From positions 1 to 52,198 of the forward strand of contig JAJVIA010000093.1 in NCBI GenBank assembly GCA_022072245.1: a stretch of DNA of 52,198 nucleotides. Direction: 5' to 3'. Position 1 is the stretch's first letter. Every line of letters begins with the position of its first letter. This stretch comes from Anaerolineae bacterium. Lineage in GTDB: Bacteria; Chloroflexota; Anaerolineae; UBA4142; SHND01. The notes beneath the pieces are model-generated. The model searched no databases. It was not told where the DNA came from and saw nothing but the letters and a program-made list of their open reading frames with translations. Both the position numbers and the translations under genes were made by a program. Below are positions 26,175 to 42,722 of this stretch, in pieces.

Positions 26175-28811
26175 ATGACTGTCCGTGACCCTGTATGTGG
26201 AATGGAAATCGAACCCCAAAATGCCTTCGCTCATCGCGAACACATGGGGCAGACGTTTTATTTTTGCTCGCAATCTTGCGTGGATCAGTTCGACGCAGAC
26301 CCGCACCATTATGTAATGACTTCGGCAACAACGGGTTTCAATCCCGAGCGGACTCTCACACGTATCGAACTACCCGTCGCCGATTTGCCGTTTTATAAAC
26401 CTGTCACCACCCTGGAATCTGGTTTGCGCGCCCTGGAGGGCGTCCATCAAGTAACCACCAATGCAGGAGCGGGCGTATTACAAGTGGAATACGATTCAGC
26501 GAAGGTGAACATCCCGCAAATGGCAGAAGTTGTTCGTGCGTCTGGCTTCCAATTGGGTGGGACGAACATCAAGATCGGAATCGAAAACTTACGCTGCGCC
26601 TCCTGCGTGAAGTTCATTGAGGATGAACTGAAATCCAAGGAGGGTGTTTTTAGCGCAACGGTCAACATTGCCACCCAGGAAGCGAGCGTGGATTATCTCC
26701 CTCAAAAGACAACGCTCTCACAGTTGAAGACAGCCATCGAGACCTGGGGTTACAAGCCCCGACCTGCGTTAACCGGTGCACCGGTGGATAAACAGGAAGA
26801 AGCACATGCGCATGAATACGGTCGCTTGATGAGAATGTTCTGGTTCTCGGCGATTGTTTCAATTCCCGTGTTGTTGTTCGCATACCCGCAGTATGTGCCT
26901 GGCATCCGGGATCTGTCAATGGAAACCATTCGCTGGGCATGGATTCTATCCGCAGCCGCTACATTGCCCGTGTTGTTCTATTCTGGGTATGACTTTTTCA
27001 CAGGCGCATGGGCGGCGTTCAAGCATCGCTCGGCAAACATGAATACGTTGATCGCGCTCGGTACGGGTGCGGCGTGGTTGTATTCAACATTCGCAATTGC
27101 TTTTCCATCCGTATTCCCCGAAGGAACCTCCGAACCGTTTTACGATGTTGTGGCAGTGGTGATTGCGTTGGTTGTGTTGGGACAGGCGCTTGAACTGCGT
27201 GCCAAGGGTCAATCCAGTTCTGCGATCAAGAAACTGCTGGGCTTGCAAGCGAAAACAGCGCGCGTCATCCGCGATGGCAAAGAAATGGATTTACCCGTTG
27301 AAGAAGTGTTGGTTGGTGATGTGATCCAGGTCCGCCCTGGTGAGAAGGTGCCTGTGGATGGAGTCATCGTCGAAGGCAGTTCGGCGGTGGACGAGTCCAT
27401 GCTGACAGGTGAATCGTTGCCTGTATCGAAGAAGCAAGGCGATGAAGTCATCGGCTCGACCATCAACAAGACCGGCGCATTCAAGTTCCGTACGACCAAG
27501 GTTGGCAAGGACACTGCCTTGGCGCAAATCGTGAAGATGGTACAGGATGCACAGAATTCCAAGGCGCCAATTGCCAGACTCGCGGATACCGTATCTGGTT
27601 ACTTTGTCCCCATCGTGATGATCCTGGCCGTGTGGACTTTTGTGATCTGGTTTGTGATTGGACCTCAACCGCAATTGGTTTATGCGCTCGTCACAAGCGT
27701 CACGGTGCTGATCATCGCCTGCCCATGTGCATTGGGACTCGCCACGCCAATGAGCTTGATGGTCGGCATCGGTAAAGGCGCGGAAAATGGAATTCTCATC
27801 CGCTCGGGGGAAGCATTACAAACCGCTCGTGCGATTCAAACGGTTGTGTTGGATAAGACGGGGACGATCACGAAGGGCAAGCCTGAAGTGACAGACACTG
27901 TGATCGCAGACGGTGGAGAATGGACGATGGAAGACCTCCTGCGTTTGACAGCCTCAGTTGAAAAGGTGAGTGAGCATCCATTGGCGCAAGCCATCGTGGA
28001 AGGCGCGCAGGCACGGAAACTGGAATTGAGCAATGTGCAGGATTTTGAAGCCATCCCTGGACACGGCGTTTCTGCGAAGGTTGAAGGACGAAACATCCTA
28101 ATTGGAAATATCAAGTTGATGAACCGCGAAAAAATTGCACTCGGTTCCCTCGAAGAAAAATCAAAAACCCTTGCCGACGACGGTAAGACTCCCATGTTCG
28201 TTGGGATTGATGGCAAAGCCGCTGGCATTATTGCCGTGGCGGACACAGTCAAAGAAGATTCTGCAGAAGCGATCAAAGCCCTGCAAAGTATGGGCATCGA
28301 AGTCGTGATGATCACCGGCGACAATCGCCGCACAGCCGAAGCGATTGCGCGCAAAGTCGGGATTACCCGCGTACTGGCGGAAGTATTACCCGAGGATAAA
28401 GCTAATAACGTTCATCTGTTACAGGCGGAAAACAAAAAAGTCGCAATGGTCGGCGATGGGATTAACGACGCGCCCGCGCTGGCGCAGGCGGACGTCGGTC
28501 TCGCGATCGGTACGGGCACTGACGTTGCCATCGAAGCCTCGGACATCACACTCATCAAGGGCAGTCTCAAAGGCGTGGTCACTGCCATTGAAGTCAGTCG
28601 CGCCACCATGACGAATATCTATCAGAACCTGTTCGGCGCTTTTATTTACAACGTGCTGGGACTTCCCGTTGCGATGGGCGTTTTGTTCCCGTTCTTTGGT
28701 TTGCTGCTCAGCCCATTGATTGCGGGGGCAGCAATGGCATTCTCCTCTGTCACCGTTGTTGGCAATGCCAATCGCCTGCGCGGCTTCAAGCCCAAATTCA
28801 GCGTAAGGTGA
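26175..28811 (+). CDS. copA: Copper-exporting P1B-type ATPase with YHS and two HMA-like domains
   Basis: An 878-residue ATPase. An N-terminal YHS domain (C8, C31, C35; FYFCSQSC) is followed by a degenerate HMA-like domain without CxxC (about residues 60-125). A normal HMA with CASC (C141, C144) comes next, then eight membrane helices. The metal site [11 protein letters not shown] (C516, C518), phosphorylation motif DKTGT (D560), the SEHPLAQAI motif and [12 protein letters not shown] are all present. CPC plus HMA indicates Cu(I) transport. First gene of a run that includes a thioredoxin-like protein, a methyltransferase, a cupredoxin and a YHS-like protein. Confidence 0.95.
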
Positions 28812-29761: not shown

Positions 29762-30139
29762 ATGTCCAATCTACAAATCTTTGTAATCCTTTCGGGTATC
29801 GTACTGACTGTATTGATCGCCTGGTATTTCTGGTTCGCGCCCAAGGCGCAGACCCGTGCAGCTGTTTCTGCCTCCGGCGCACAAGAGGTGGCAATCACAG
29901 TCAAAGGCGGCTACACCCCCGATGTGATCGTGGTGCAAAAAGGTCGCCCCGTGCGGTTAACGTTCACGCGTCAGGAGAGTTCCGCATGTTCCGAAAAAGT
30001 GCTGTTCCCCGATTTCAATCAAAACGCATTATTACCCGAAGGCGAACAGGTGACGTTGGAATTCACCCCTGCCAAAGAAGGTGAATATGGCTTCCAGTGT
30101 CAGATGGGAATGTTGCGGGGCAAGTTGATCGTGGAATAA
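29762..30139 (+). CDS. Membrane-anchored cupredoxin
   Basis: A 125-residue protein with an N-terminal helix (about residues 6-25) and one cupredoxin domain facing out. The ligand regions are SSACSEKVLFPDF (C76) and FQCQMGMLRGKLIVE (C113, M115, M117). This Cys/Met pattern without the usual His pair is that of the CopA-associated cupredoxins with a CxMGM motif, which probably bind Cu(I). It lies 1 bp after the methyltransferase gene. Confidence 0.85.
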   Translation: MSNLQIFVILSGIVLTVLIAWYFWFAPKAQTRAAVSASGAQEVAITVKGGYTPDVIVVQKGRPVRLTFTRQESSACSEKVLFPDFNQNALLPEGEQVTLEFTPAKEGEYGFQCQMGMLRGKLIVE

Positions 30140-30160
30140 TACCGAAAGGGATACACAAAA

Positions 30161-30367
30161 ATGAAACACGAAAAAATCCACATGCCAAACCTTTCTTGCA
30201 TCGCGGCATTTGTTATTGGCGTCATCTTGTTCGCCGTATTTTGGAGGATGATGTTTGGCTCGGCGCCCAGCCTGGTGGTTCTTGCTGGTATGATTGGCGC
30301 CGCCACCGCCGTGACTCTCTTCTGGCTCAGGAATGAAATCCAACATCATCGAAAAGACAACCAATGA
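30161..30367 (+). CDS. Small two-helix membrane protein
   Basis: A 68-residue protein with helices near residues 13-30 and 34-54 and a basic, His-containing tail (RNEIQHHRKDNQ). Not recognised as a family. Its stop overlaps the start of the YHS-like gene (ATGA), so the two are coupled. Probably an accessory subunit of the copA operon. Confidence 0.7.
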   Translation: MKHEKIHMPNLSCIAAFVIGVILFAVFWRMMFGSAPSLVVLAGMIGAATAVTLFWLRNEIQHHRKDNQ

Positions 30368-30570
30368 CACTGGATCAAAACGAAACATTCCTACCTCCTC
30401 CGCCAAAATATAAAACTGCTTGTGGAGGAATAATCAAGGATCCATCCAAATACACCAGTGCGGAGTATCGCGGCGAGAGGATATATTTCTGTACGCAGGC
30501 ATGTTTGGATGTATTTCTTTTGAACCCCGACCCTTTTATGGCTGGTGAAATCGAACACCCTCTTGATTAA
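30364..30570 (+). CDS. YHS-like small protein
   Basis: A 68-residue protein with a YHS-like core: ACGGIIKDPSKYTSAEYRG, then RIYFCTQACLDVFLLNPDPF. The normal DPVCGM is changed to a CGG sequence, but the three Cys positions remain. Likely metal-binding, cytosolic. Last gene of the copA run. The following 148 bp carry a weak hairpin (TCAGGAA/TTCCTGA at 30584-30601, no T-run) and the next regulon promoter. Confidence 0.72.
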   Translation: MTLDQNETFLPPPPKYKTACGGIIKDPSKYTSAEYRGERIYFCTQACLDVFLLNPDPFMAGEIEHPLD

Positions 30571-30609
30571 TTCAATATGACAATCAGGAAATCATTCCTG
30601 ATAAATATC

Positions 30610-30678
30610 ATAAGCAAAACAGCGTATTTCGAAACAGGTTGAAATGCGCTGTTGATTTTTCCACATGGGTTGTAAGAT
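30610..30678 (+). promoter_or_regulatory. Regulon promoter of the DoxX gene
   Basis: ATAAGCAAAACAGCGTAT (30610-30627), then 45 bp, then TAAGAT (30673-30678). Second-site element ACAGGT-N6-GCGCTG (30634-30651). Confidence 0.75.
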
Positions 30679-30718
30679 GGGTCACAGCAAGACAAAATTC
30701 ATCCTAAAAGGAGTAAAA

Positions 30719-31288
30719 ATGACTACTCAAACCATGACCCGGGATTATCAACTCGCTGATGTTCCCTTTACGAAAACCCTGTTCGAAGGCAAGGTGTTTG
30801 CCTGGCTCTGGCTCACCATTCGTCTGTACCTGGGATACCAGTGGATCGAATCGGGCTGGGGCAAGATCACCAACCCCGCCTGGATGCAGGGCGGCGAAGC
30901 GCTGAAAGGTTTCTGGGATCGCGCTGTCCTCATCCCCGATGCGCCTGCCCGTCCTCTGATCGCCTTTGATTGGTATCGCAATTTCATCCAGTTCATGCTC
31001 GATAGCGGCAACTACGTCTGGTTCGCCAAACTCGTGGCGGTGGGCGAATTACTGGTGGGCGCGGCATTGATCCTGGGTATCTTCATCTGGTTCTCCGCTT
31101 TTATAGGCGGTTTTATGAACTGGAATTTTATGATGGCAGGATCCGCCTCTGTCAATCCTGTCTTCCTGATCCTCTCGATCCTGCTTGTCCTTGCTTGGAA
31201 AACCTCCGGCTGGCTTGGTCTGGACCGCTGGCTGCTGGTACAGGTAGGCACTCCCTGGCAACCCGGTTTGTTATTCCAACGCAAGTAA
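30719..31288 (+). CDS. DoxX-family membrane protein
   Basis: A 189-residue protein with four membrane helices of the DoxX/DoxD type. LWLTIRLYLGYQWIESGWGKI is the typical first helix and WFAKLVAVGELLVGAALILG the typical third. DoxX proteins take part in quinone-linked sulphur or thiol redox reactions. ATG at 30719 is chosen for its AAAAGGAG site. It is monocistronic, between a regulon promoter and a perfect terminator. Confidence 0.88.
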   Translation: MTTQTMTRDYQLADVPFTKTLFEGKVFAWLWLTIRLYLGYQWIESGWGKITNPAWMQGGEALKGFWDRAVLIPDAPARPLIAFDWYRNFIQFMLDSGNYVWFAKLVAVGELLVGAALILGIFIWFSAFIGGFMNWNFMMAGSASVNPVFLILSILLVLAWKTSGWLGLDRWLLVQVGTPWQPGLLFQRK

Positions 31289-31307
31289 TCAATGTACTTC
31301 ATTTGAA

Positions 31308-31345
31308 CAATCATCCCCTGAATTATCAGGGGATGATTGTTTTTG
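31308..31345 (+). terminator. Rho-independent terminator
   Basis: CAATCATCCCCTGA pairs perfectly with TCAGGGGATGATTG around an ATTA loop and is followed by TTTTTG. It ends the DoxX transcript. Confidence 0.95.
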
Positions 31346-31409
31346 TGGGATTGAATTGAACAGAGATCGTTCCTGAATGATCTGTCATATATTTGCCATG
31401 ATGTTTGAC

Positions 31410-31478
31410 ACAAGTCATTCTGCCTACTCCCTTTTGCGCCATATCGCGCTACTTCGGATGGAACAATCCTTATAAGAT
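31410..31478 (+). promoter_or_regulatory. Regulon promoter of polyferredoxin module A
   Basis: ACAAGTCATTCTGCCTAC (31410-31427) has a good right half and a weak left half. TAAGAT (31473-31478) follows after 45 bp, within TATAAGAT. The second site GCCATATCGCGCTAC (31438-31452) is strong. Downstream, AATCCTTATA and CAACTTTGCAGA match the leader before 18255 closely. Confidence 0.68.
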
Positions 31479-31513
31479 AGGTCAACTTTGCAGAATAAGG
31501 AGCTGGGCTGTTC

Positions 31514-32188
31514 ATGGCTAAAAAAATTTCAGGAATCACCACCCGAATGGTCATCATCGCAATGCTTTTGATGGGCTTTCCGGGAACTGTATTTGCGGAT
31601 GGCGGAGATGGTGGATATGAAGCGACCGCAGATGGATATCATATTACGCTCGTATTTTCCGAGCCTGTCAAATCAGGCATGAATGAATTTCATGTGCTGA
31701 TCGCCGACTCGATGGGCATGCCGGTCTCAAATGCCATCGTGGAAGTAATCGCCATGCCAGCGGAAGAAATGTCCGATCATTCAGAAGAACCTGCTGAGGA
31801 AATGCATGGCATGGAAATGGCTACCGAAACCCCAGTCCCGGAAGATGTGCATGGCATGTCAGGAATGGATATGTCTAGCGAGTCTGAAACCAACGAGCAT
31901 GAAGATGTCGAAGAGGTTGCTCATGACGAAGAACCTGTTGCAGTGAAGCTCGCAAGTGGGCATGAAGCTGGCGAATATTCAGGAGAGATCCATCTGGATG
32001 CTTCAGGCAACTGGACATTCAATATCCACTTTACTCTGGATGACCAGATGACCGCAGTCGAAATTCCCATTGAAGTTCCCCGCACCATTTCCAATTATGG
32101 GATTCTGGCTGGCTTTTTCGGCATCAATGCAACGGTGATTGCCGCAGCCGCCATCACAAAACGAAAACCCATTTCTCCAAAGGCCTAA
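31514..32188 (+). CDS. Exported Met/His/acid-rich protein with FixH/YtkA-like fold
   Basis: A 224-residue protein with a signal peptide (to about residue 29), a split beta domain (GYHITLVFSEPVKSG ... ASGNWTFNIHFTLDDQ) and a C-terminal membrane helix (about 197-214). Inserted in the middle is a disordered stretch (about residues 88-142) full of Met, His, Asp and Glu, such as EEMHGMEMATETPV and HGMSGMDM. This looks like a copper-binding arm on a YtkA-like domain. It is the first gene of a set with a polyferredoxin and an HMA protein. Confidence 0.78.
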   Translation: MAKKISGITTRMVIIAMLLMGFPGTVFADGGDGGYEATADGYHITLVFSEPVKSGMNEFHVLIADSMGMPVSNAIVEVIAMPAEEMSDHSEEPAEEMHGMEMATETPVPEDVHGMSGMDMSSESETNEHEDVEEVAHDEEPVAVKLASGHEAGEYSGEIHLDASGNWTFNIHFTLDDQMTAVEIPIEVPRTISNYGILAGFFGINATVIAAAAITKRKPISPKA

Positions 32189-32200
32189 GAGGATTATTTC

Positions 32201-33580
32201 ATGACAACATCTCTTCCAACCCCACCCCCCTCCATGCTGAATGGCGGAAACCTGCTCAACAACAAATGGATCGACCGTTTCCTGCGCAGCCGCTGGTATC
32301 CCGGCATCATCCAATGGCCCACTCTGATGATCTTCATGGTCATCATGTTCGAGCTTATTCTGGGACCTGAATCGGCGCATGACAACTTCGGCACCGCGCT
32401 GACCTGGGTCTTGTGGTGGCCTCTCATCCCGATCATCTTCCTGTTCCTCGGACGGTTCTGGTGCGCCATCTGTCCGTTTGCCAAGATCAATGATCTTGTA
32501 CAAAATTTTGTCGGCAACAATCGCCCCGCTCCACGCTTCCTGAAAAAATATGGCATCTGGATCATCGATGCGCTCTTTATCTTCATCACCTGGAGTGATC
32601 ATGTCTTTGGCGTGGTGGAAAATCCGCTTGGCTCCGGTGTACTGATGTTGACCCTCACCACAGGCGTGATCGTCTCCGGTGCTTTTTACGAACGCCGCAC
32701 CTTTTGCCGCTATGTCTGCTTCCTGGGTGGTCTTTCAGGCAACTACGCCCGCAACGGCATGTTGAGCCTGCGTGGAACTCCGGAAATTTGTGCGACATGT
32801 ACCATCGCCGCCTGCTATAAAGGCACGGACCAATCCATGCCCTGCCCCTTGTATGAATTCCCCAAGACCATGACCTCCAGCGCCAACTGTGTGTTGTGTG
32901 CGGAATGTATCAAGGGCTGCCCCAACAACTCCATCCAACTGACCGTGCGTCCGCCTACCAAGGAATTATGGTTCATCCGCAAGCCGAAGATGGAAGAAGC
33001 CTTCCTTTCAGCAGTCATCATGGGCATTGTGTTCGTCCAGAATGTGACCATGCTCGAAATCTGGGAATCCATGTTGAAGTGGTTGGAGAACGTGACCGGC
33101 ACGACTAACTACGCTGTCACCTTCAGCATAACCTTTGCGACTGCCATCATCATCCCGGTGGCGTTGCTCGGGCTGACCTCCTGGATCGCAAGCAAGTTCA
33201 ACAAAGCTACGCTCGTTGAAAATTTTGCCCGCTTTGGATATGCCATCATTGCACTGGACATGGCAGGGCACATCGCGCATAACCTGTTCCACCTGCTGGC
33301 GGAAGGCAAGTCCATTCTATACACCGGTATGGCATTGTTTGGGATGGAAATCCACGGCGCGTCGCCTGCCATTCTCGGCATGCAGGAGATCCAGTGGCTT
33401 CAATTTGGCTTGATCGCTCTTGGCTTCATTGGCTCCCTTTACACCGCCTATCGCATCTCCAAATCGAATCATTCCGGCGAAAAAGTCTGGGGAACATTCG
33501 CGCCCTTTGCGGTGTTGATGGTCGTCCTGACCATCATGAACGTCGTTCTCTTCACCCTGCCGATGGCAATGAGAATGTAA
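32201..33580 (+). CDS. NapH/NosR-like polyferredoxin membrane protein (module A)
   Basis: A 459-residue membrane protein with about nine helices and several Cys sets: FWCAICPFAK (C88, C91), FCRYVC (C169, C173), then a ferredoxin-like region with CATCTIAAC (C197, C200, C205) and CVLCAECIKGCP (C230, C233, C236, C240). Members of this group (NapH, NosR, CcoG, FtrD) pass electrons through Fe-S clusters at the membrane. A second, distinct paralogue is encoded at 37187. Here it is paired with a Met/His-rich exported protein and a cytosolic HMA protein, so it probably reduces a copper or iron carrier. Confidence 0.87.
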   Translation: MTTSLPTPPPSMLNGGNLLNNKWIDRFLRSRWYPGIIQWPTLMIFMVIMFELILGPESAHDNFGTALTWVLWWPLIPIIFLFLGRFWCAICPFAKINDLVQNFVGNNRPAPRFLKKYGIWIIDALFIFITWSDHVFGVVENPLGSGVLMLTLTTGVIVSGAFYERRTFCRYVCFLGGLSGNYARNGMLSLRGTPEICATCTIAACYKGTDQSMPCPLYEFPKTMTSSANCVLCAECIKGCPNNSIQLTVRPPTKELWFIRKPKMEEAFLSAVIMGIVFVQNVTMLEIWESMLKWLENVTGTTNYAVTFSITFATAIIIPVALLGLTSWIASKFNKATLVENFARFGYAIIALDMAGHIAHNLFHLLAEGKSILYTGMALFGMEIHGASPAILGMQEIQWLQFGLIALGFIGSLYTAYRISKSNHSGEKVWGTFAPFAVLMVVLTIMNVVLFTLPMAMRM

Positions 33581-33612
33581 ATATCTCGAAATAAATAACA
33601 GGAGTAAAGATC

Positions 33613-33933
33613 ATGGATCAAAATTGTCATGTCGAACCCATTCAAAAGACTGTCTTGGATAGTATACTAAAAAGTGCAGACACAACTTTGCTGGCAGTAT
33701 CCGGGATGGGTTGCCCGAATTGTGCCGCACGTGTAAGAAATGGACTTGTTTCCCTGGAAGGTGTTCATCATGCCGAGATCCATCTTGATACAGGATTAGC
33801 GGAAGTGTATTTTGACAGCGGCAAAGTCACCCCGGAAATTCTGATCAATGCAGTTGCCGATGCTGGAAATGATGGGCGGCATCATTATGAAGCAGTGGTT
33901 GTGGCGCGATCATTCCACATAGAATCTGCGTAA
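33613..33933 (+). CDS. HMA-domain metal-binding protein, copy 1
   Basis: A 106-residue cytosolic protein with one heavy-metal-associated domain; the GMGCPNCAARVRNGL motif has C34 and C37. The N-terminus MDQNCHVEPIQK adds a Cys-His pair, a possible extra ligand. It is strongly similar to the protein at 35850 (same CHVEPIQK start and AxxDAGNDGRHxYxA end), so the two are recent duplicates. Likely a copper chaperone for an ATPase or for the polyferredoxin module. Confidence 0.88.
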   Translation: MDQNCHVEPIQKTVLDSILKSADTTLLAVSGMGCPNCAARVRNGLVSLEGVHHAEIHLDTGLAEVYFDSGKVTPEILINAVADAGNDGRHHYEAVVVARSFHIESA

Positions 33934-34009: not shown

Positions 34010-34099
34010 GGGTATCCTCCGAATTCGGAGGATACCCATATGTTTTATAAGGGTAGAAAAATGCATAGCCCTGCTGCTTCTGCCCAACAACTATATTAA
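34010..34099 (+). pseudogene. Remnant 5' end of a PCYCGC-type lipoprotein gene with palindromic leader
   Basis: A perfect 28-bp palindrome (34010-34037, arms GGGTATCCTCCGAA) contains GGAGG, followed by CATATGTTTT, just as before the intact lipoprotein gene at 36275. The frame from 34040 gives only 19 codons (MFYKGRKMHS...) and no lipoprotein. The upstream HMA gene and promoter are also duplicates. This is therefore probably the surviving front end of a duplicated copy, cut off where the C39 protease gene now begins. A genuine tiny peptide cannot be excluded. Confidence 0.55.
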
Positions 34100-35337
34100 G
34101 GAATATCTCCTAATTGATGAAGCCGGGTTAATGCAGGTTCGAAACCGGGATGGTTATTGAGGGCAGTCCGAAGATCCGTCCTGGCTCTGTCATAATCCCC
34201 CAATGCTTCAAGGGAACGGGCGCGCCAATAATAACTTTCCTCGAGAACCGGTTCACTCATAGCCTTGAGGGTGGTGGTGGCAAGATCCATCACGTCCTGA
34301 AAACGCCCTGTGTAAAAATATGCCGAGTACGGCCCGGTCTGATACCACATCATACGCCAGGGTCTCTCTTTGTCTGGAATATCAGGATACATGGCAAATG
34401 CCTTGTCATACGCCAATGCAGCACCGGCATAATCCCGGAGTTGAACCAGACTGCTACCCAGATTGAACCATGCAAAAAATTGATCCCGTCCGGCTAATTG
34501 GACAACCTCTTCCGTTGCAACATGTGCAGAGCTGCGGTTATTGTATTCCACATCAAAATGAGGACCCAAAATTGCGATCACATCCTTCTGCCGTTCAATT
34601 GGATGAATAACAAGATACGTGAAATTAAACGCCCGCCAATTACCCTCCAAATTCTCATACTGAATAGACTGATCAGGACCGTAATACGAATCCTGGACAA
34701 TAAACTTGCGTTCGGTTTCATCCTAACCGGTCACGAGAACATAATGCCCCATCCAGCCATCAAAGTCACGACCTTCGAAGCCCTTCTCGATGATAACCGG
34801 CAATTCGGCAGCCAGTAGGCGTTTGAGCAATTTGATGTCACCGCCTGTACGGTAAACAACTTCAAGTCCGGTTTCCTCCAGAACATAATCGGACAGTTCA
34901 TAAGGCATTACATTCTTGTCCCGCGAATTGGGTTTGGTGAATGCGGCAATGGGTCGCTGATCGTCGTCCCATCCCCAGTAAGTAAGCGCCATTGCCAAGG
35001 TAGCCGGGCCGCAGTTATTCCAGGTTTGATATTCATGTTGGGCGCCAATGAGAGTTATCTTCTCAGGTAATGGTATCGGCGATATAACCAGGGTCGGTGT
35101 CGTCGCAGGCATAAGTTGGGGAGTGGGAACCGTCTCAGTCGCAGTTGGGGGACCCTCCTTTGGAACGAATAGTACTTTCTCCGGAGGCGATATTGCATAC
35201 TTAATTTGTGCCCATGCCTCATTGACTCGCCATGCAACTTTTTCACGAACGGCGGGAATGGAATAGATCAGAGGGATCACAACAATTGACCCCAGCAGGA
35301 AAAATATTGCGAGTTTGGTGTTTTTTATCTTCTTCAT
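34096..35337 (-). pseudogene. C39-family peptidase with TPR region, interrupted by one TAG
   Basis: One frame of 414 codons from 35337 to 34096 is broken only by a TAG at codon 205 (34725-34723). The front half has a membrane anchor (about residues 9-27), a Thr/Pro linker and a C39-like papain-fold domain with NNCGPATLAMAL (C109) and GHYVLVTG (H198). Directly after the TAG the frame continues DETERKFIVQDSYYGP, the expected rest of the domain with the catalytic Asp, and then TPR-like repeats. Homologues usually have Tyr where the TAG stands, one base change away. It is inserted between the two metal modules on the opposite strand. Confidence 0.82.
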
Positions 35338-35633: not shown

Positions 35634-35837
35634 ATGTCATTCAAAGACCCCGTCTGCGGCAAACGCATCAATCGCGGCAAAGCCCACATCACCATTGAAT
35701 TCGAAGGCGTAAATTATTTCCTGTGCTGCCCACAATGCCAGGCTCAATTTGAACGTTCCCCGAAAACCTTTGCCAAGCCTGAATTGGGTGAGAAAGCAAG
35801 GAGAGTCCAACACTATCCCGTCAAACAACACAATTGA
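35634..35837 (+). CDS. YHS-domain protein
   Basis: A 67-residue YHS domain: FKDPVCGKRINRGKA, then GVNYFLCCPQCQAQFERSP, with an extra Cys in the second motif. ATG at 35634 is chosen because AAGGAG lies 8 bases upstream; an in-frame ATG at 35589 would add 15 residues without a site. The basic C-terminal tail (KARRVQHYPVKQHN) is not part of the domain. It is followed 12 bp later by the second HMA protein, a pairing not seen beside the first HMA copy. Confidence 0.84.
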   Translation: MSFKDPVCGKRINRGKAHITIEFEGVNYFLCCPQCQAQFERSPKTFAKPELGEKARRVQHYPVKQHN

Positions 35838-35849
35838 GAGGAAAACAAT

Positions 35850-36149
35850 ATGAGCGATAATTGCCACGTTGAACCAATTCAAAAGTCCGCGCTGGATCAT
35901 GTCATCCAATCTGCCCACCGGATCCTGCTGTCCATTTCAGGAATGGGCTGTCCAAACTGTGTCACACGAGTGCGTAATGGACTGCTGTTGCTGGATGGTG
36001 TCCATGACGCCGAAGTGCTGTTGAACATGCGCATGGCGGAGGTTTACTTCGATGAGAAAAAGGTCTCTATCGAGATGCTTGTTCAGGCAGTGACTGGGGC
36101 GGGAAACGATGGGCGTCACAATTATCAGGCGCAGGCGATCACATCGTAA
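35850..36149 (+). CDS. HMA-domain metal-binding protein, copy 2
   Basis: A 99-residue protein closely related to the one at 33613. It starts MSDNCHVEPIQKSALDHVIQ, has GMGCPNCVTRVRNGL (C34, C37) and ends GAGNDGRHNYQAQAI. Likely a cytosolic Cu(I) or Zn chaperone. Downstream, as after copy 1, comes the promoter and start of a PCYCGC lipoprotein gene, here intact. Confidence 0.88.
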   Translation: MSDNCHVEPIQKSALDHVIQSAHRILLSISGMGCPNCVTRVRNGLLLLDGVHDAEVLLNMRMAEVYFDEKKVSIEMLVQAVTGAGNDGRHNYQAQAITS

Positions 36150-36178
36150 TTGATCTTAACCGTCAGATGACATTCATC

Positions 36179-36247
36179 ATAAGCCATTTGGCGTATATCC
36201 CTATCCGCCGTACTGCGCTGGAGTTAACTTAATTGTCAGACTACTAT
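36179..36247 (+). promoter_or_regulatory. Regulon promoter of polyferredoxin module B
   Basis: ATAAGCCATTTGGCGTAT (36179-36196), then 45 bp, then TACTAT (36242-36247). Second-site element CTGCGCTGG (36213-36221) is nearly identical to that before 18255. Confidence 0.78.
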
Positions 36248-36273
36248 TGAGCCATCCGAACACGGAGGCTCAA
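36247..36273 (+). promoter_or_regulatory. Palindrome covering the start site and ribosome binding site of 36275
   Basis: TTGAGCC (36247-36253) and GGCTCAA (36267-36273) pair, with an inner CCG/CGG stem. GGAGG lies in the right part, 7 bases before the ATG. A related, perfect palindrome occupies the same place before the relic at 34040. Because the predicted transcription start is near 36254, it may act as a DNA operator or as a shortened mRNA hairpin hiding the Shine-Dalgarno sequence. Confidence 0.5.
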
Positions 36274-36274
36274 T

Positions 36275-36715
36275 ATGTTTTCTAAACCAAACAAATTTAT
36301 TTTCCTGTTGATTGTTATAACGCTGGTAAGTACCGCAGTATCAGCTTGTTCCACATCGAGTGAAGTTCATCTCGCCATGACACCACTCGATCAAATGCCA
36401 ATGGATGTTCAGTCTGCTCCAGTGGCTGTGCAGGAAGCCTACCAATTCAATACCGCCAATCCAAATATCATGCAGGATATTCCCTGCTATTGCGGATGCG
36501 GCGATATCGGTCATACCTCCAATTACGATTGCTATGTTTCGGATGTGGATGCCAATGAGAAGATCACCTTCGACAATCACGCCCTCGGCTGCTCCATCTG
36601 CGTGGACATCACCCAGGATGTGATGCGTATGTTGAATGATGGCAAAAGTCCGCAGGATGCCAGGGCATACGTAGACGCGACCTACTCCAAATACGGATCG
36701 TCCAACATCCCCTAA
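36275..36715 (+). CDS. PCYCGC-motif lipoprotein
   Basis: A 146-residue lipoprotein (lipobox VSAC, Cys 25). The mature protein has the family motif PCYCGCGDIGH (C71, C73, C75), then C86 and DNHALGCSICVD (C106, C109). These six Cys and one His probably bind a metal cluster outside the membrane. The family is known by motif but not by function. In this operon it occupies the place that the P19-type iron-binding protein has in FtrABCD systems. First gene of module B; the next gene starts 4 bp after its stop. Confidence 0.85.
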   Translation: MFSKPNKFIFLLIVITLVSTAVSACSTSSEVHLAMTPLDQMPMDVQSAPVAVQEAYQFNTANPNIMQDIPCYCGCGDIGHTSNYDCYVSDVDANEKITFDNHALGCSICVDITQDVMRMLNDGKSPQDARAYVDATYSKYGSSNIP

Positions 36716-36719
36716 TCTC

Positions 36720-37190
36720 ATGCGCTATCGTTTCTCTCTTCTCCTTCTTGTAATGGCTGGACTGGTGGTGGCATTCGCGCCCCTGCCAGTTCCAACCATT
36801 GCGCCTCAAGAACGGACCTTTGAGATTGATGCACACCAATTTGCTTATTCTCCCTCTGATCTTCATGTCAACCCTGGTGACACAATAAATATCCATCTCA
36901 CCAGTACCGATGTTGTTCACGGTCTTTACGTGGATGGCTACGATATTTCCGTGGAAGCCGACCCCGGACAAAGCGCCACATTGACTTTTGTTGCCGATAA
37001 ACCCGGCTCCTTCCGCTTTCGCTGCAACATCACCTGTGGAGCCATGCATCCCTTCATGATCGGCAAGTTGACCGTGGGCAATAATTCTTGGTTATATCGC
37101 TCGATTGGTTTGTCAATCCTTGCCGCTATCAGCTTCTTTCCTCTTTCTTCCTTTAGTGACAGAAAGACGAAAGAAGAAAGAATCAAATGA
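36720..37190 (+). CDS. CuA-site cupredoxin (COX2/NosZ-like), membrane-anchored
   Basis: A 156-residue exported protein with an N-terminal signal/anchor (about residues 5-22), a cupredoxin domain and a C-terminal helix (about 126-143). The ligands are H67 in VVHGLYVDG and C102, C106, H110, M113 in CNITCGAMHPFM. The C-x3-C-x3-H-x2-M spacing is that of the binuclear CuA centre of cytochrome oxidase subunit II. It is much smaller than subunit II and no subunit I is present. Likely an electron-transfer or metal-oxidising partner of the polyferredoxin, which follows with an ATGA overlap. Confidence 0.88.
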   Translation: MRYRFSLLLLVMAGLVVAFAPLPVPTIAPQERTFEIDAHQFAYSPSDLHVNPGDTINIHLTSTDVVHGLYVDGYDISVEADPGQSATLTFVADKPGSFRFRCNITCGAMHPFMIGKLTVGNNSWLYRSIGLSILAAISFFPLSSFSDRKTKEERIK

Positions 37191-38518
37191 ACCGCATCGA
37201 ACTTACCCGTATTCCCTTTATAAAGAACGCTCTCAAAAACCGTTACCCGCAATTGGCTGTCTTTATCGTAATGCTGATCGGATATATCTTTGCAATCCTT
37301 GCCGGACTCATCGGGACTCCAGTGGGGAGTCATAACTTTAGCATTGTCTTTGTGTGGATCGCCTGGTGGGCGATCCTGATCCTTGTCGCGGTTCCATTCT
37401 TTGGGCGGGGATGGTGCGCGGTCTGTCCGATCCCGCTGCCAGGCGAGTGGTTACAGCGCGGCGCAGTCTTGAGTCCTCCCGACAAAAAACCGAAATGGCT
37501 CAATCTCCGCGTGCCAAAGATGTTCCGCAATATCTGGTTGCAGAATATTTCATTTCTTCTTCTTGCTCTCTTCAGCAGTGTGCTGCTGACAACCCCGAAT
37601 ATTACAGGCATCGTCCTAGCTGCGATGCTCTTTTCCGCCATTGGACTTAGCACAGTCTTTGAACGCCGCGCCTTTTGTCGCTATCTCTGTCCAGTTGGCG
37701 GATTTATCGGTCTATATTCCCAAACCGCTCCCATCGAATTACGCATCAAAGATAAGCAGGTCTGTGTCACTTGTGAAGGAAAGCCTTGTTACAACGGCTC
37801 ATCAGTAGGGTATGGCTGTCCGTGGGATGTCTTCCCTGGCGGCTTGACCAAGAACACCTATTGCGGCTTGTGCATGGAATGTATCCGCACCTGCCCTCAC
37901 GATAATATCGCCGTCAACCTGCGTCCCTTCTCTGCTGATCTCACCAAACCTTCCACACGCATGGACGAAGCCTTCAAGGCGTTCATTATGCTTGGCTCGG
38001 CAATCATCTATGCAGGTGTTCTGCTTGGTCCGTGGGGCGCTTTCAAGGATGCAGCCTACAATGTTGGCTCGAGCTCATGGTTCATCTATGCCATTGTTTT
38101 TCTTGCGATCATCTTCGTTGTTCTGCCTGGCTTGTTCACACTTGGTATCGTAGACACGAAAAACGCCTTACCGCTCAAACAACGTTTTGCGTCGCTCTCA
38201 ACCGCCCTCATTCCATTGGGGTTGATGTTCTGGGTGGCATTTAGCCTGTCCTTCGTTCTCACCAACGCCTCCTACATCATAGCCGCCCTCTCTGATCCGC
38301 TGGGTCTTGGCTGGAATCTTTTTGGCACAGCCAATGCAACGTGGCAGCCGATGCTCACCTCCATGCTTGCACCCGCACAAGCATTGGCGCTGGTCGGCGG
38401 CTTGATCTGGTCTGCCCGTACCGCGCAAAAAGCCGCAGGAGAAGTGAAAGTCTCGTCCATCCCAGTGATCGTATATTGTTTTTTCGCCACATGTTTCATG
38501 CTCTGGTTGTTACTATGA
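37187..38518 (+). CDS. NapH/FtrD-like polyferredoxin membrane protein (module B)
   Basis: A 443-residue membrane protein with about nine helices. Cys motifs are GWCAVCPIPLPGEW (C77, C80), FCRYLCPVGG (about residues 167-173), CVTCEGKPC, and YCGLCMECIRTCPHD, a ferredoxin-like 4Fe-4S set. It is a paralogue of the protein at 32201 with the same layout. In FtrABCD iron uptake systems a protein of this kind takes electrons from the periplasmic oxidase step. Overlaps of 4 bp on both sides tie it to the two CuA genes. Confidence 0.87.
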   Translation: MNRIELTRIPFIKNALKNRYPQLAVFIVMLIGYIFAILAGLIGTPVGSHNFSIVFVWIAWWAILILVAVPFFGRGWCAVCPIPLPGEWLQRGAVLSPPDKKPKWLNLRVPKMFRNIWLQNISFLLLALFSSVLLTTPNITGIVLAAMLFSAIGLSTVFERRAFCRYLCPVGGFIGLYSQTAPIELRIKDKQVCVTCEGKPCYNGSSVGYGCPWDVFPGGLTKNTYCGLCMECIRTCPHDNIAVNLRPFSADLTKPSTRMDEAFKAFIMLGSAIIYAGVLLGPWGAFKDAAYNVGSSSWFIYAIVFLAIIFVVLPGLFTLGIVDTKNALPLKQRFASLSTALIPLGLMFWVAFSLSFVLTNASYIIAALSDPLGLGWNLFGTANATWQPMLTSMLAPAQALALVGGLIWSARTAQKAAGEVKVSSIPVIVYCFFATCFMLWLLL

Positions 38519-39492
38519 AGCGACCTGAACTCATCTCCCGTTTTCTGATCGTCACAGGAATTCTCCTCGCGGTTGGCGCGCCATTATTCTTTTGGGCACG
38601 CACGCCTTTGATCCACGCGCGCATGGCGGAGGACGGCGGCTGGAATCCCGATGTTATTCAAGCAGAAGTTGGCGAGCCGCTTCATCTAAAGATCACTTCC
38701 GATGACGTTGTACATGGCTTTGCAGTCGGTCAAATGGAGATGCAAAGTGTGGACATCCTCCCTGGCAAAGTCACCGAGGTCACATTGAACTTCGACAAGC
38801 CCGGGATTTACACTTTCTTCTGCACGCGCTGGTGTGGACTCAACCACTGGCGGATGCGCGGCACGATAGAAGTCAGCGGCTCACCTTTGGACCCTGAGCC
38901 TGCCACTGTTCCCCTCTACGTTTCCCTCGACCTTGACCTTGACGCTCCGCACGACGCGTCTGCTGTCCCAAATGGAAAACCTTCGGCGACCAGCGGTCAA
39001 TTACTGGAAACCAATCTGCCAATTGACCAGTCTGCCGAATACTATCGTTCTCATTCACCTTATGAGGTTTTTGAAGGTTTACAAAACACATCCCTTACCG
39101 AAGCCCAACGTTGGGACGCAGTCGCCTACTTCTGGCAATCCAACACCACCCCTGAATCCCTTGCAAATGGCAGACAGCTCTACGCCGAAAACTGCGCCGC
39201 CTGCCACGGCGAAAATGGCGCAGGGGATGGCGTTTTTGCCGACGACCTTGCTGCCGCAGGCGAGTCCTCCTTGCAAACAATGGAAGGCGCTATGGATATG
39301 GCCATGCAGACCCCTGTGGATTTCACTAATCCACAACGAATGCTTGGCGCCAGTCCTGCATTATTACAAGGGAAAATCCTGCGCGGCGGCATGGGCACAG
39401 GCATGCCCATGTGGGGGTCGATCTTCACCGAAGACCAAATCTGGGATCTGATCGCATACATCTATTCATTCCAGTTTGAATATCAACATTAA
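38515..39492 (+). CDS. CuA-domain/cytochrome c fusion protein
   Basis: A 325-residue exported protein. An N-terminal helix (about residues 8-27) is followed by a CuA cupredoxin domain: H67 in VVHGFAVGQ and C103, C107, H111, M114 in CTRWCGLNHWRM. A c-type haem domain follows, with CAACH (C227, C230, H231) and a probable axial Met in GTGMPMWG (297-299). This is the layout of caa3 oxidase subunit II, but no oxidase subunit I is near. It probably carries electrons between CuA, haem c and an outside acceptor. ATG 38515 overlaps the previous stop; the longer upstream frame lies inside that gene. Confidence 0.88.
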   Translation: MKRPELISRFLIVTGILLAVGAPLFFWARTPLIHARMAEDGGWNPDVIQAEVGEPLHLKITSDDVVHGFAVGQMEMQSVDILPGKVTEVTLNFDKPGIYTFFCTRWCGLNHWRMRGTIEVSGSPLDPEPATVPLYVSLDLDLDAPHDASAVPNGKPSATSGQLLETNLPIDQSAEYYRSHSPYEVFEGLQNTSLTEAQRWDAVAYFWQSNTTPESLANGRQLYAENCAACHGENGAGDGVFADDLAAAGESSLQTMEGAMDMAMQTPVDFTNPQRMLGASPALLQGKILRGGMGTGMPMWGSIFTEDQIWDLIAYIYSFQFEYQH

Positions 39493-39501
39493 GGAGGCTC
39501 T

Positions 39502-39963
39502 ATGAGCAAAAAACATAAGAGACAGAAACAAAAGCAAAAGTTTCCGTGGCTGCTTCTGGCGCTGGGCGGAGTGTTCGTTGCCCTTGCTGTAATCCTGTTC
39601 GCGCGTCAAGGAGGTGATGGAGGCGGTACGCCATCCATCGCGGTGGATCAACAGTTGATTGACTATGGTGACGTGAAGTTCAACGTGGAAAAAACCTTTG
39701 CCATCAAGGTCACCAACACCGGGGATGGTACACTGCGCTTCAAGGAAGAACCATATATCGAAGTATTGGAGGGATGCTGACCTCCTCAATTAACCATCGG
39801 TTCGATGGTGCTCAAACCCGGCGAAAGCACAATCGTTGAGTCTAGTATTTTCATGATGCATGAAGGCATGGACGGTCCGCATAACTTTGCAGTTCACTTG
39901 AAAACAAATGATCCTGCAAATCCTGATCTAATTGTGAACGTATTATCCAATTGGATCCCGTAA
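39502..39963 (+). CDS. DUF1573-like membrane protein, possible selenoprotein (in-frame TGA at codon 93)
   Basis: Read through a single TGA at 39778-39780, the frame gives 153 residues: basic N-terminus, one helix (about 14-34) and an immunoglobulin-like DUF1573 domain. The sequence is continuous across the TGA: YIEVLEGC-(TGA)-PPQLTIGSMVLKPGES and then MMHEGMDGPHNF. As I recall, homologues have CC-PP at this point, so the TGA replaces a Cys. A hairpin ACCATCG-GTT-CGATGGT begins 12 bases after the TGA, with its loop 19 bases after it, as in bacterial SECIS elements. Otherwise the gene is broken and only residues 1-92 are made. Confidence 0.65.
39778..39809 (+). promoter_or_regulatory. SECIS-like element behind in-frame TGA
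   Basis: TGA (39778-39780) is followed by ACCATCG (39793-39799), a GTT loop, and CGATGGT (39803-39809): seven perfect base pairs, with G as first loop base, 19 bases from the TGA. Bacterial SECIS elements, as described in the literature, have a short stem with G in the first loop positions about 16-37 bases after the UGA. Confidence 0.5.
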
Positions 39964-39983
39964 AACCTGGAGGTTTATATTCA

Positions 39984-40805
39984 ATGTTAGCAAGTTTTCT
40001 TTTATCACTGCGGGAGGGTCTGGAAGCCGCCCTTATCATCGGTATCGTGTTGGGCGTTCTGGTGAAGTTGAAACGTACCGACTTGAATGCTGTTGTCTGG
40101 CGCGGGGTGGGGGTGGCAGCCTTATTGAGTCTTTTCGCGGCTATCGCCCTTAACCTGCTTGGAATGGAATTCGAAGGCAAAGGCGAGGAAATTTTTGAAG
40201 GCATTGCCATGCTTCTTGCCGCAGGCGTTCTGACTTGGATGATCGTATGGATGAAAAATCATGGCAGGACACTCAAGCGTGAAATCGAGGAACAAACCAA
40301 TCAGGCGGCGCTGGGGAAGGGACAGAAAGCCTTGTTCGCGCTGGCATTCTTGGCTGTATTCCGTGAAGGGATCGAGCTGGCGTTGTTCCTGCTCGCTGCG
40401 AGACTGACATCCAGCCCATTGCAGACCATTTCAGGTACATTACTCGGGCTGATCGGTGCAGCCGTTCTTGGCTGGATATTGTTTACATCTACCATGAAAC
40501 TCAGCCTGCGCAAATTTTTTAGTACAACCAATCTTCTACTGATTATTTTTGCAGCAGGTTTGGTTGGATTGGGAGTTCACGAGTTTAATGAAGCAGGGAT
40601 CATTCCTTCAGTGATCGAAAATGTATGGAACATCAACTCCATTCTGAGCGATAAAAGTGAAATAGGATTGCTTCTGAAAGCCTTGATAGGCTACAATGGC
40701 AATCCCTCCTTAACTGAAATCGTCGCCTATACCATTTATTTGGCTGGTATGACCATGCTTGTCCTGTTGAAAAGGCAAATGCCCCTTCCTGTGAAAGCCG
40801 ATTAA
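39984..40805 (+). CDS. FTR1-family iron (or copper) permease
   Basis: A 273-residue membrane protein with seven helices and the two FTR1 motifs, REGLE (residues 10-14) and REGIE (127-131), which bind the metal during transport. Start ATG 39984 is chosen for its GGAGG site; the frame upstream overlaps the preceding gene. FTR1 permeases import Fe(III) delivered by an oxidase (EfeUOB, FtrABCD). Here the oxidase role would fall to the CuA proteins of the same operon. Last gene of module B, ending 23 bp before a convergent histidine kinase gene. Confidence 0.9.
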   Translation: MLASFLLSLREGLEAALIIGIVLGVLVKLKRTDLNAVVWRGVGVAALLSLFAAIALNLLGMEFEGKGEEIFEGIAMLLAAGVLTWMIVWMKNHGRTLKREIEEQTNQAALGKGQKALFALAFLAVFREGIELALFLLAARLTSSPLQTISGTLLGLIGAAVLGWILFTSTMKLSLRKFFSTTNLLLIIFAAGLVGLGVHEFNEAGIIPSVIENVWNINSILSDKSEIGLLLKALIGYNGNPSLTEIVAYTIYLAGMTMLVLLKRQMPLPVKAD

Positions 40806-40827: not shown

Positions 40828-41961
40828 TTAATTTAATCTGGCAATAGGCAGTGTAAATGTGAATACACTGCCTATTGCATTTCCAGCCGACTCCACCCAG
40901 ATGCGTCCGCCCTGCGCTTCGATGAGGGCGCGGGCAATCGTCAAGCCAATGCCGCTCCCGCCGCCTGCCTGCCGTGAACGGGATTTGTCCACGCGGTAAA
41001 AACGGTCGAAGATGTGCGAGAGGTGTTCAGCGGGTATTCCTATACCCGTGTCACGAATGGAAAACTGGATATCATTACTTGTTCTCTTTGCAGAAATGGT
41101 GACTCTGCCGCCTTCTGGTGTGTATTGCAAGGCGTTGCCTGTCAGGTTGGTCAACACCTGCACGGCGCGATCTTCGTCAGCTAGAACATGTTGAAGGTCA
41201 GGATGCAGTTCAAAGTCCAGTGTGATGCGTTTTAATTCTGCATGAGGGGAAAGGCGTTTGGTCACCGTTCGCACCAGTGCGGAGGCATCCACGGGGCGAA
41301 TATTCAGTTGATAGGCGCGGGCTTCAACACGACTGAGTTCCTGCAGATCGTTTACGAGACGATTAAGCCGCTCCGCTTCCGCATGGACCTGTTGATAGGT
41401 CTCGTCGGTAGCGGGCAGGATGCCGTCCATCAATCCTTCCATCGAGCCTTTGATGGCAGTTAGCGGCGTTCGTAGTTCATGACTGACATCACCGATTAGC
41501 CGCCGACGCATGGATTCAACTTCATTCAGTTTTTCAGCCATCTGATTGAAATACACTGCAAGTTGCGCGAGTTCGTCATTACCATTGACTTGCACGCGCT
41601 CGTCGTATCGTCCATCGGCAATTCGTTGTGTGGCGAGTGACATGGCATGGACGGGAGAGATCACGCTCCGACTGAAGAACATGCTTAGAACGAATGCGGC
41701 GAACATGGCTGCAAGGGTTGCGTACATCAGGGCTTCATTGAAACTGGCGCGGTAATCAACATAGAGTTGCGACATTGCGCTATTGCCGTTCATCCCCATC
41801 ATCATGCCGTCATTTCCCATGCCCGCCATGTGGCGATTGAAAGAGGCTGGCAGGATGAACTGACTGGCAATCACCAACACGAGCACTCCGACTACAATGA
41901 TTACAAGATAGGACAGTAACAACCTTGCACCCAGGCGCCGGCGGAAATATTCAATCATCAT
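40828..41961 (-). CDS. OmpR-type sensor histidine kinase with Met-rich external loop
   Basis: A 377-residue kinase. Helices at about residues 13-36 and 77-97 enclose a short loop of about 40 residues with many Met (HMAGMGNDGMMMGMNG). HAMP follows, then the phosphoacceptor DVSHELRTPLTAIKG (H161) and a complete ATP-binding domain (TGNALQYTPEGG, IRDTGIGIP, GGGSGIGLTI). The Met-rich loop suggests sensing of Cu(I) or Ag(I). The gene follows its response regulator with a 7-bp gap. Its 3' end contains a 15-bp inverted repeat that may act as a transcription end between convergent genes. Confidence 0.93.
   Translation of the reverse strand: MMIEYFRRRLGARLLLSYLVIIVVGVLVLVIASQFILPASFNRHMAGMGNDGMMMGMNGNSAMSQLYVDYRASFNEALMYATLAAMFAAFVLSMFFSRSVISPVHAMSLATQRIADGRYDERVQVNGNDELAQLAVYFNQMAEKLNEVESMRRRLIGDVSHELRTPLTAIKGSMEGLMDGILPATDETYQQVHAEAERLNRLVNDLQELSRVEARAYQLNIRPVDASALVRTVTKRLSPHAELKRITLDFELHPDLQHVLADEDRAVQVLTNLTGNALQYTPEGGRVTISAKRTSNDIQFSIRDTGIGIPAEHLSHIFDRFYRVDKSRSRQAGGGSGIGLTIARALIEAQGGRIWVESAGNAIGSVFTFTLPIARLN
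40841..40878. repeat. Inverted repeat in the 3' end of the histidine kinase gene
   Basis: GCAATAGGCAGTGTA (40841-40855) and TACACTGCCTATTGC (40864-40878) pair over 15 bp around an 8-base loop. It encodes the last residues of the kinase and sits between two convergent genes. There is no T-run on either strand, so termination is uncertain. Confidence 0.6.
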
Positions 41962-41968
41962 TCCTCAC

Positions 41969-42652
41969 TTACAAGGGTTCATCTTCAAATCTATAGCCGA
42001 CTCCGCGTACCGTGGCGATTAAGTCATCATGCCCCAACTTCTGACGAATATGCCCGAGATGCACATCCACAACGCGCATTTCGCCGAAGTATTCGCCGCC
42101 CCACACCTTCTCCAGGAGTTGCTCGCGTGTAAGGACCCTGCCACGGTTTTCAGCCAGCGCTTTCAACAAATCGAATTCAATGGCGGTCAATTCAATCGCT
42201 TGATCGTCTACCTTGACAATACGCGCGCCAACGTCCATATGCAAGTGATGGAAAGACAACACGCTCGTTTCAGACCCCGAACCTGATCCCGTTTGAATAC
42301 GCCTGACCGCGGCTTTGACTCGTGCCACCAATTCGCGCGGACTGAAAGGTTTGGCCACATAATCATCTGCGCCGACGGAAAGACCGACGACCTTATCGGT
42401 CTCTTCGGTCTTCGCGGTCAACAGGATTACATACACTTCTGATTCGCGGCGCAAACGTGAGAGCAGTTCGATTCCATCCAGTCCAGGGAGCATGATATCC
42501 AGGATGATAAGATCGGGCTTCAATGTACGGGCAGACTTGAGACCTGCCAGACCATCTATCGCTGTATAAACCTCATAACCTTCGGGTTTGAGGTATGCGG
42601 TGACCAGATTGATGATGGATGGTTCGTCGTCGATGACCAGGATTTTTGTCAT
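41969..42652 (-). CDS. OmpR/PhoB-family response regulator
   Basis: A 227-residue regulator starting MTKILVIDDEPSIINL, with phosphoacceptor D52 in LIILDIMLPG and a C-terminal winged helix (LTAIEFDLLKALAENRGRVL, DVHLGHIRQKLG, GVGYRF). An ATG two codons upstream (42658) is an alternative. It precedes the Met-rich sensor kinase. The upstream gene, which encodes a Met-rich PepSY protein, has three CTTTAY direct repeats at 11-bp spacing in its promoter, the usual binding pattern of this regulator class. Confidence 0.94.
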   Translation of the reverse strand: MTKILVIDDEPSIINLVTAYLKPEGYEVYTAIDGLAGLKSARTLKPDLIILDIMLPGLDGIELLSRLRRESEVYVILLTAKTEETDKVVGLSVGADDYVAKPFSPRELVARVKAAVRRIQTGSGSGSETSVLSFHHLHMDVGARIVKVDDQAIELTAIEFDLLKALAENRGRVLTREQLLEKVWGGEYFGEMRVVDVHLGHIRQKLGHDDLIATVRGVGYRFEDEPL

Positions 42653-42722
42653 GTGCATCTCTTATAGTTGGATAATTGGGCGAGAAATTTGCCAATATTG
42701 TAACTTTACTTGTATGAAAGCG

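Follow-up and report, generated by a model that had tools for sequence, protein, structure and literature searches.

Within a 52,198-nucleotide (nt) stretch of Anaerolineae DNA (contig JAJVIA010000093.1, hereafter the window), a DUF1573 gene with one in-frame TGA almost certainly encodes an unbroken selenoprotein, in which the UGA at 39778 to 39780 is read as selenocysteine (Sec). Judged by its sequence, the product, Sec-DUF1573, is a new selenoprotein subfamily, absent from published lists, with a vicinal Cys-Sec pair and conserved Met and His residues on a predicted membrane-anchored immunoglobulin (Ig)-like (ASH/DUF1573) domain. The gene belongs to a conserved five-gene unit that also encodes a PCYCGC lipoprotein, a CuA protein, a NapH-like polyferredoxin, and a CuA-cytochrome c fusion. 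An initial annotation had described the locus as an FtrBCD-like metal uptake operon and marked the DUF1573 protein as perhaps containing Sec, a suspicion borne out by a shared TGA/Cys alignment column, a downstream hairpin, and Sec machinery. The features that carry this assignment are as follows.

39502 to 39963, plus strand: predicted membrane-anchored, Sec-containing DUF1573/ASH-like protein of 153 residues, with Sec93
39778 to 39780, plus strand: TGA assigned to selenocysteine from the homolog alignment, with Cys in 8 homologs
39793 to 39809, plus strand: hairpin of the selenocysteine insertion sequence (SECIS) type, ACCATC-GGTTC-GATGGT, beginning 12 nt after the UGA

The in-frame UGA and its hairpin

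Homologs of the gene were found in 82 of 396 genomes of the class. The close ones mostly contain exactly one TGA, and the weakest matches are ordinary DUF1573 proteins with none. When 55 homologs were aligned, 47 had TGA and 8 had a Cys codon (TGC or TGT) at one shared position of a G-C-[U/C]-P motif, and the residues flanking that position are conserved. TGA was also present in 80 of 80 loci from named GTDB genomes, a set found with the part downstream of Sec (A3) as a single pattern, [GD]M[DEG]GPH[DEN]F, which skews it towards close relatives. Nine genomes from other Chloroflexota classes contain TGA homologs as well.

The hairpin has a 6-base-pair stem and a 5-nt loop, usually GGUUC, and is taken as a bacterial SECIS because of its position and loop. 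All six pairs formed in 42 of 46 sequences, compared to a mean of 6.5 under synonymous recoding of the same proteins, and Cys forms make just one to three of the six. Overall, 98.6% of hairpin cells pair, shifting the pairing partner reduces pairing, and 57 cells show double changes versus 24 in shuffles, with 0 of 500 shuffles as high. An Rfam scan of the window returned no family at its gathering score.

The host genome encodes tRNA-Sec, selA, selB, and selD. A SelA match was found in 58 of 63 class genomes with the TGA form (two of the matches weak) versus 2 of 5 with Cys forms alone, a comparison of small numbers in which many genomes are incomplete. The host selD gene (G000:C22:39758-40690) itself contains an in-frame TGA and in this resembles known Sec-containing SelD proteins. 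A second Sec-DUF1573 copy, 40% identical, is found in the host genome at G000:C43:25439-25825, and two genomes have Sec and Cys paralogs near each other (L031/L057; L082).

Standard gene calling would end the open reading frame (ORF) at the TGA, as expected if the codon were a true stop in a truncated gene or a sequencing error. The conserved TGA/Cys column, the conserved protein downstream, the covarying hairpin, and the Sec machinery together make this highly improbable, and a pseudogene or sequencing error was rejected on the conservation of the gene across homologs. Genome-wide recoding of TGA was also rejected because TGA is the ordinary stop of both the CuA protein (CuA1) and polyferredoxin genes and because the cognate residue is Cys; the codon is therefore read two ways within the operon.

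The contig (C19; window positions 1 to 52198) is probably misbinned from another Anaerolineae family, or else represents a large transferred island. Window DNA is mostly 76 to 89% identical over long stretches to genomes of another family (f29: G027, G061, G213, and G223), including a 12-kilobase (kb) block at 84%; identity to its own genus is limited to short stretches of about 65 to 75%. Those f29 genomes that hold the Sec-DUF1573 gene also have SelA, and the Sec conclusion is therefore independent of contig misbinning. At the two ends of contig C1 in G213 (L046 and L066), near-identical copies of the region occur, in one of which the Sec gene is frameshifted; this duplication is likely an overlapping, uncircularized contig end.

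Fold and family of Sec-DUF1573

At E ≤ 0.01, 43 of 44 family members matched DUF1573 (PF07610; best 2.4e-11) and all 44 matched a HYDIN-type Ig domain. The window protein lies at the weak end, matching only related ASH models below Pfam cut-offs. AlphaFold2 predicted an N-terminal membrane helix at residues 17 to 37 and a confident beta sandwich at residues 41 to 153 (block-mean predicted local distance difference test [pLDDT] of 95 to 99), and Foldseek with the predicted structure returned ASH/PapD-like domains. C92, M119, M123, and H127 are invariant, H120 is nearly so, and position 93 holds either Sec or Cys.

In the class, ordinary DUF1573 proteins carry the motif S-C-G-C-T. Window-type proteins have lost the first Cys of C-G-C, where the residue is mostly Glu, and Sec replaces Thr, giving G-C-U. 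A 2026 inventory covering 119 selenoprotein (sub)families of prokaryotes gives DUF1573 with a U-G-C motif only and assigns a separate subfamily for each different Sec position (PMC13188914); the UGC form also appears in PMC9312934. Because Sec lies in G-C-U, not U-G-C, and because position defines the subfamily (PMC13188914), Sec-DUF1573 is best classed on its own. Both types share the DUF1573 domain and one Sec in a Cys loop, but the window type differs in having Sec after the second Cys, the Met/His residues, and the operon setting. None of the NCBIfam selenoprotein models matches Sec-DUF1573 at E ≤ 0.01.

The five-gene unit and its surroundings

Sec-DUF1573 is the fifth of six consecutive plus-strand genes at 36275 to 40805, with intergenic gaps in gene order of 4, −4, −4, 9, and 20 nt. 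This six-gene set with overlaps or short gaps, as originally described, was confirmed by translation and Pfam. The remaining five genes are listed below.

36275 to 36715, plus strand: PCYCGC lipoprotein (PF13798, 94.6 bits)
36720 to 37190, plus strand: membrane-anchored CuA cupredoxin, CuA1 (Pfam COX2, Cupredoxin_1)
37187 to 38518, plus strand: NapH-like membrane polyferredoxin, polyFd (Pfam Fer4_5; 11 invariant Cys)
38515 to 39492, plus strand: CuA-cytochrome c fusion (Pfam COX2 and Cytochrom_C; CuA set plus CAACH)
39984 to 40805, plus strand: FTR1/EfeU-type permease, optional sixth gene (PF03239, 179.5 bits)

The permease start is at 39984; a TTG at 39951 belongs to the mechanical ORF and is not the true start. 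The single promoter of the initial annotation is not supported at 36150 to 36274: the scan gave 8 sites in the region versus 6.2 ± 2.1 by chance, with none in the gap.

Conservation defines a unit of five genes. Among 105 distinct loci, 65 had full context; 48 of the 65 carry the complete set of five core genes, mostly arranged as in the window. As for the six-gene order proposed initially, five genes recur in other Chloroflexota but FTR1 as the sixth does so rarely: of 101 distinct loci, about 8 have it immediately 3′ (seven that were counted, and a group of identical proteins, L087/L088/L090/L091, skipped by the counting rule). FTR1 was rejected as a core gene; in close relatives it is an optional extra. 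Sec-DUF1573 is widespread in Anaerolineae and is also present in other classes of Chloroflexota. Several loci (L054, L061, L071, and L153) show just PCYCGC and the Sec protein, with carriers not found, and this pair may therefore be the functional core.

The CuA, heme, and iron-sulfur ligands of the unit are conserved. The PCYCGC protein has its lipobox Cys at C25, and C71, C73, C75, H80, C86, H102, C106, and C109 are kept in 92 homologs (C106 is TGA in one). Like the OS_HP4/CYCXC (seleno)protein family (NF041379, PF13798), of which it is a distant relative, it belongs to PF13798; it differs in having Cys instead of Sec and scores 64.5 bits against NF041379, below the NCBIfam cut-off of 90. 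Its predicted structure (pLDDT 91) had no PDB match with E ≤ 0.001, and a CcmH resemblance at E of ~3 was not used. CuA1 carries the full CuA ligand set, H67 plus C102xxxC106xxxH110xxM113, with H67 invariant in 87 of 87 homologs and the remaining ligands in 88 of 88. The fusion protein matches CuA domains of solved oxidases and keeps its Cys/Cys/His ligands in 86 of 93 homologs. For the polyferredoxin, the only matches at E ≤ 0.01 were weak ones to NapH/NosR, and no PDB sequence matched at that threshold. In one relative (L079; G251:C1, about 5049.3 kb), an in-frame TGA takes the place of the C106 codon in PCYCGC (HAFG-U-SICVDI), and a strong hairpin follows; this operon has two selenoproteins, and the PCYCGC Sec falls at the known OS_HP4 UxxC position.

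Genes around the operon include the following.

26175 to 28811, plus strand: copper-type P1B ATPase, upstream on the same contig (CPC, YN-x4-P, and M-x2-SS motifs)
35634 to 35837, plus strand: YHS-domain protein, upstream neighbor (PF04945, 38.2 bits), which adjoins the operon in close relatives
35850 to 36149, plus strand: HMA (CopZ-like) metal-binding protein, upstream neighbor (PF00403, 42.4 bits)
40828 to 42658, minus strand: histidine kinase and response regulator, convergent neighbor, recurring in relatives

Matches of the HMA protein to NCBIfam NF041115 and CopZ were below cut-off. Further neighbors encode a multicopper oxidase and YtkA-like proteins. Window positions 29762 to 33933 hold a second NapH-like polyferredoxin (32201 to 33580) together with a cupredoxin (29762), DoxX (30665), YtkA (31514), and HMA (33613) and are perhaps another copper-redox cluster. 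A C39-like peptidase/TPR gene on the minus strand (34096 to 35337) is broken by a single TAG at 34723 to 34725.

Possible roles of the unit

We tentatively regard the five genes as an extracytoplasmic copper-redox, cupric reductase, or CuA-metallation and electron-carrier module, an assignment that falls somewhat short of probable. The PCYCGC lipoprotein would gather copper at the cell surface, and the Cys-Sec pair with its Met and His residues could form a Cu(I) site or a redox pair holding copper reduced. This site might then load or reduce CuA sites, with the polyferredoxin exchanging electrons across the membrane with the CuA and heme c carriers. In its most specific form, an Ig-fold cuproselenoprotein spread through Chloroflexota would bind Cu(I) via Cys-Sec and Met/His and, with CuA, heme c, and iron-sulfur carriers, reduce copper or metallate CuA outside the membrane; this form is possible, though doubtful. 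Several selenoproteins with CU motifs are in metal or organometal families (PMC13188914).

Such a set could combine tasks divided among known proteins. CcoG, a cupric reductase, has both a polyferredoxin and an Ig-like domain, and in other bacteria CuA sites are supplied by PCuAC and Sco (PMC7558416). The window resembles CcoG in bringing together a membrane polyferredoxin and an Ig-like extracytoplasmic domain, but here a separate selenoprotein provides the Ig-like domain and CuA carriers are added. The likeness to PCuAC/Sco is an analogy between extracytoplasmic beta-sandwich or Cys-containing proteins supplying CuA sites; the window protein differs in its DUF1573/ASH fold, Cys-Sec pair, and polyferredoxin operon. 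The initial annotation knew of no described system of this composition, and none was found in the open-license papers searched, so that a description in a subscription journal may have escaped notice.

Several observations weigh against a copper-redox role. The assignment to copper comes from neighbor genes and the kinds of ligand present, and some loci adjoin FTR1, a permease of the iron type. Of 80 relatives, 30 have CopA-like ATPase genes close to the operon, and control loci from the same genome had no CopA, multicopper oxidase, or FTR1 match, but this control is small (68 kb). CuA sites are usually electron carriers, not copper traffickers. The polyferredoxin, only a distant NapH relative, gave no CcoG-model match at E ≤ 0.01.

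Nearly as likely as the copper-redox role is an electron-transfer chain running from a quinol or cytoplasmic donor through polyferredoxin, CuA, and heme c to a terminal acceptor, with the Sec protein and PCYCGC as CuA assembly factors. CuA and CuA-cytochrome c proteins are classical electron carriers, NapH-like proteins pass quinol electrons, and every redox ligand is conserved. The conserved unit, however, is without a terminal reductase or oxidase gene, and loci in which PCYCGC and the Sec protein were found without carriers are ill suited to pure CuA assembly factors. A nearby oxidase subunit I, which the initial annotation recognized would turn the CuA proteins into oxidase parts, had no Pfam match among the scanned window ORFs, and the few unscanned long ORFs are unlike one.

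The uptake operon envisaged at the outset would have CuA oxidize Fe(II) for FTR1, with electrons returning via iron-sulfur clusters and heme c. CuA, heme c, and polyferredoxin proteins are indeed encoded together beside a metal permease, as that proposal stated, and FTR1 lies 20 nt after the Sec gene in the window and directly after it in close relatives. Because FTR1 is not beside about 93 of 101 distinct loci, iron import is unlikely as a common function, and the surroundings hold copper genes, not iron genes. The window shares a cupredoxin, a NapH-like protein, and an FTR1 permease with FtrABCD of Brucella and Bordetella. It differs in adding cytochrome c and a selenoprotein, in its unconserved FTR1, in the missing P19, and in using CuA instead of the Cup-II cupredoxin FtrB, whose ligand set includes D118/H121 (PMC11966278). 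The absence of P19, with a six-Cys lipoprotein in first place, agrees with the earlier description: no P19 was seen among the operon and neighbor genes scanned, and PCYCGC has six conserved Cys. Without P19, and with cupredoxins of CuA rather than FtrB type, the reading as a rebuilt FtrBCD is unsupported. Mercury or organometal handling, in which Cys-Sec, HMA, and YHS proteins would bind soft metals other than copper, is more unlikely still. SaoL and HgcA contain CU motifs, and the upstream HMA protein resembles a UxxU metal-binding (seleno)protein family once named "putative mercuric reductase" (PMC13188914), but the analysis identified neither mer nor hgc genes, and the CuA proteins, the P1B ATPase with Cu(I) signatures, and the multicopper oxidase indicate copper.

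Gene callers ignorant of Sec-DUF1573 will truncate the gene or miss it altogether. The protein would join selenium to copper and CuA chemistry by means of the Cys-Sec motif on its Ig-like domain, and its operon provides a defined five-gene set for testing. Sec-DUF1573 is also one possible reason for lineages of Chloroflexota keeping the Sec machinery.

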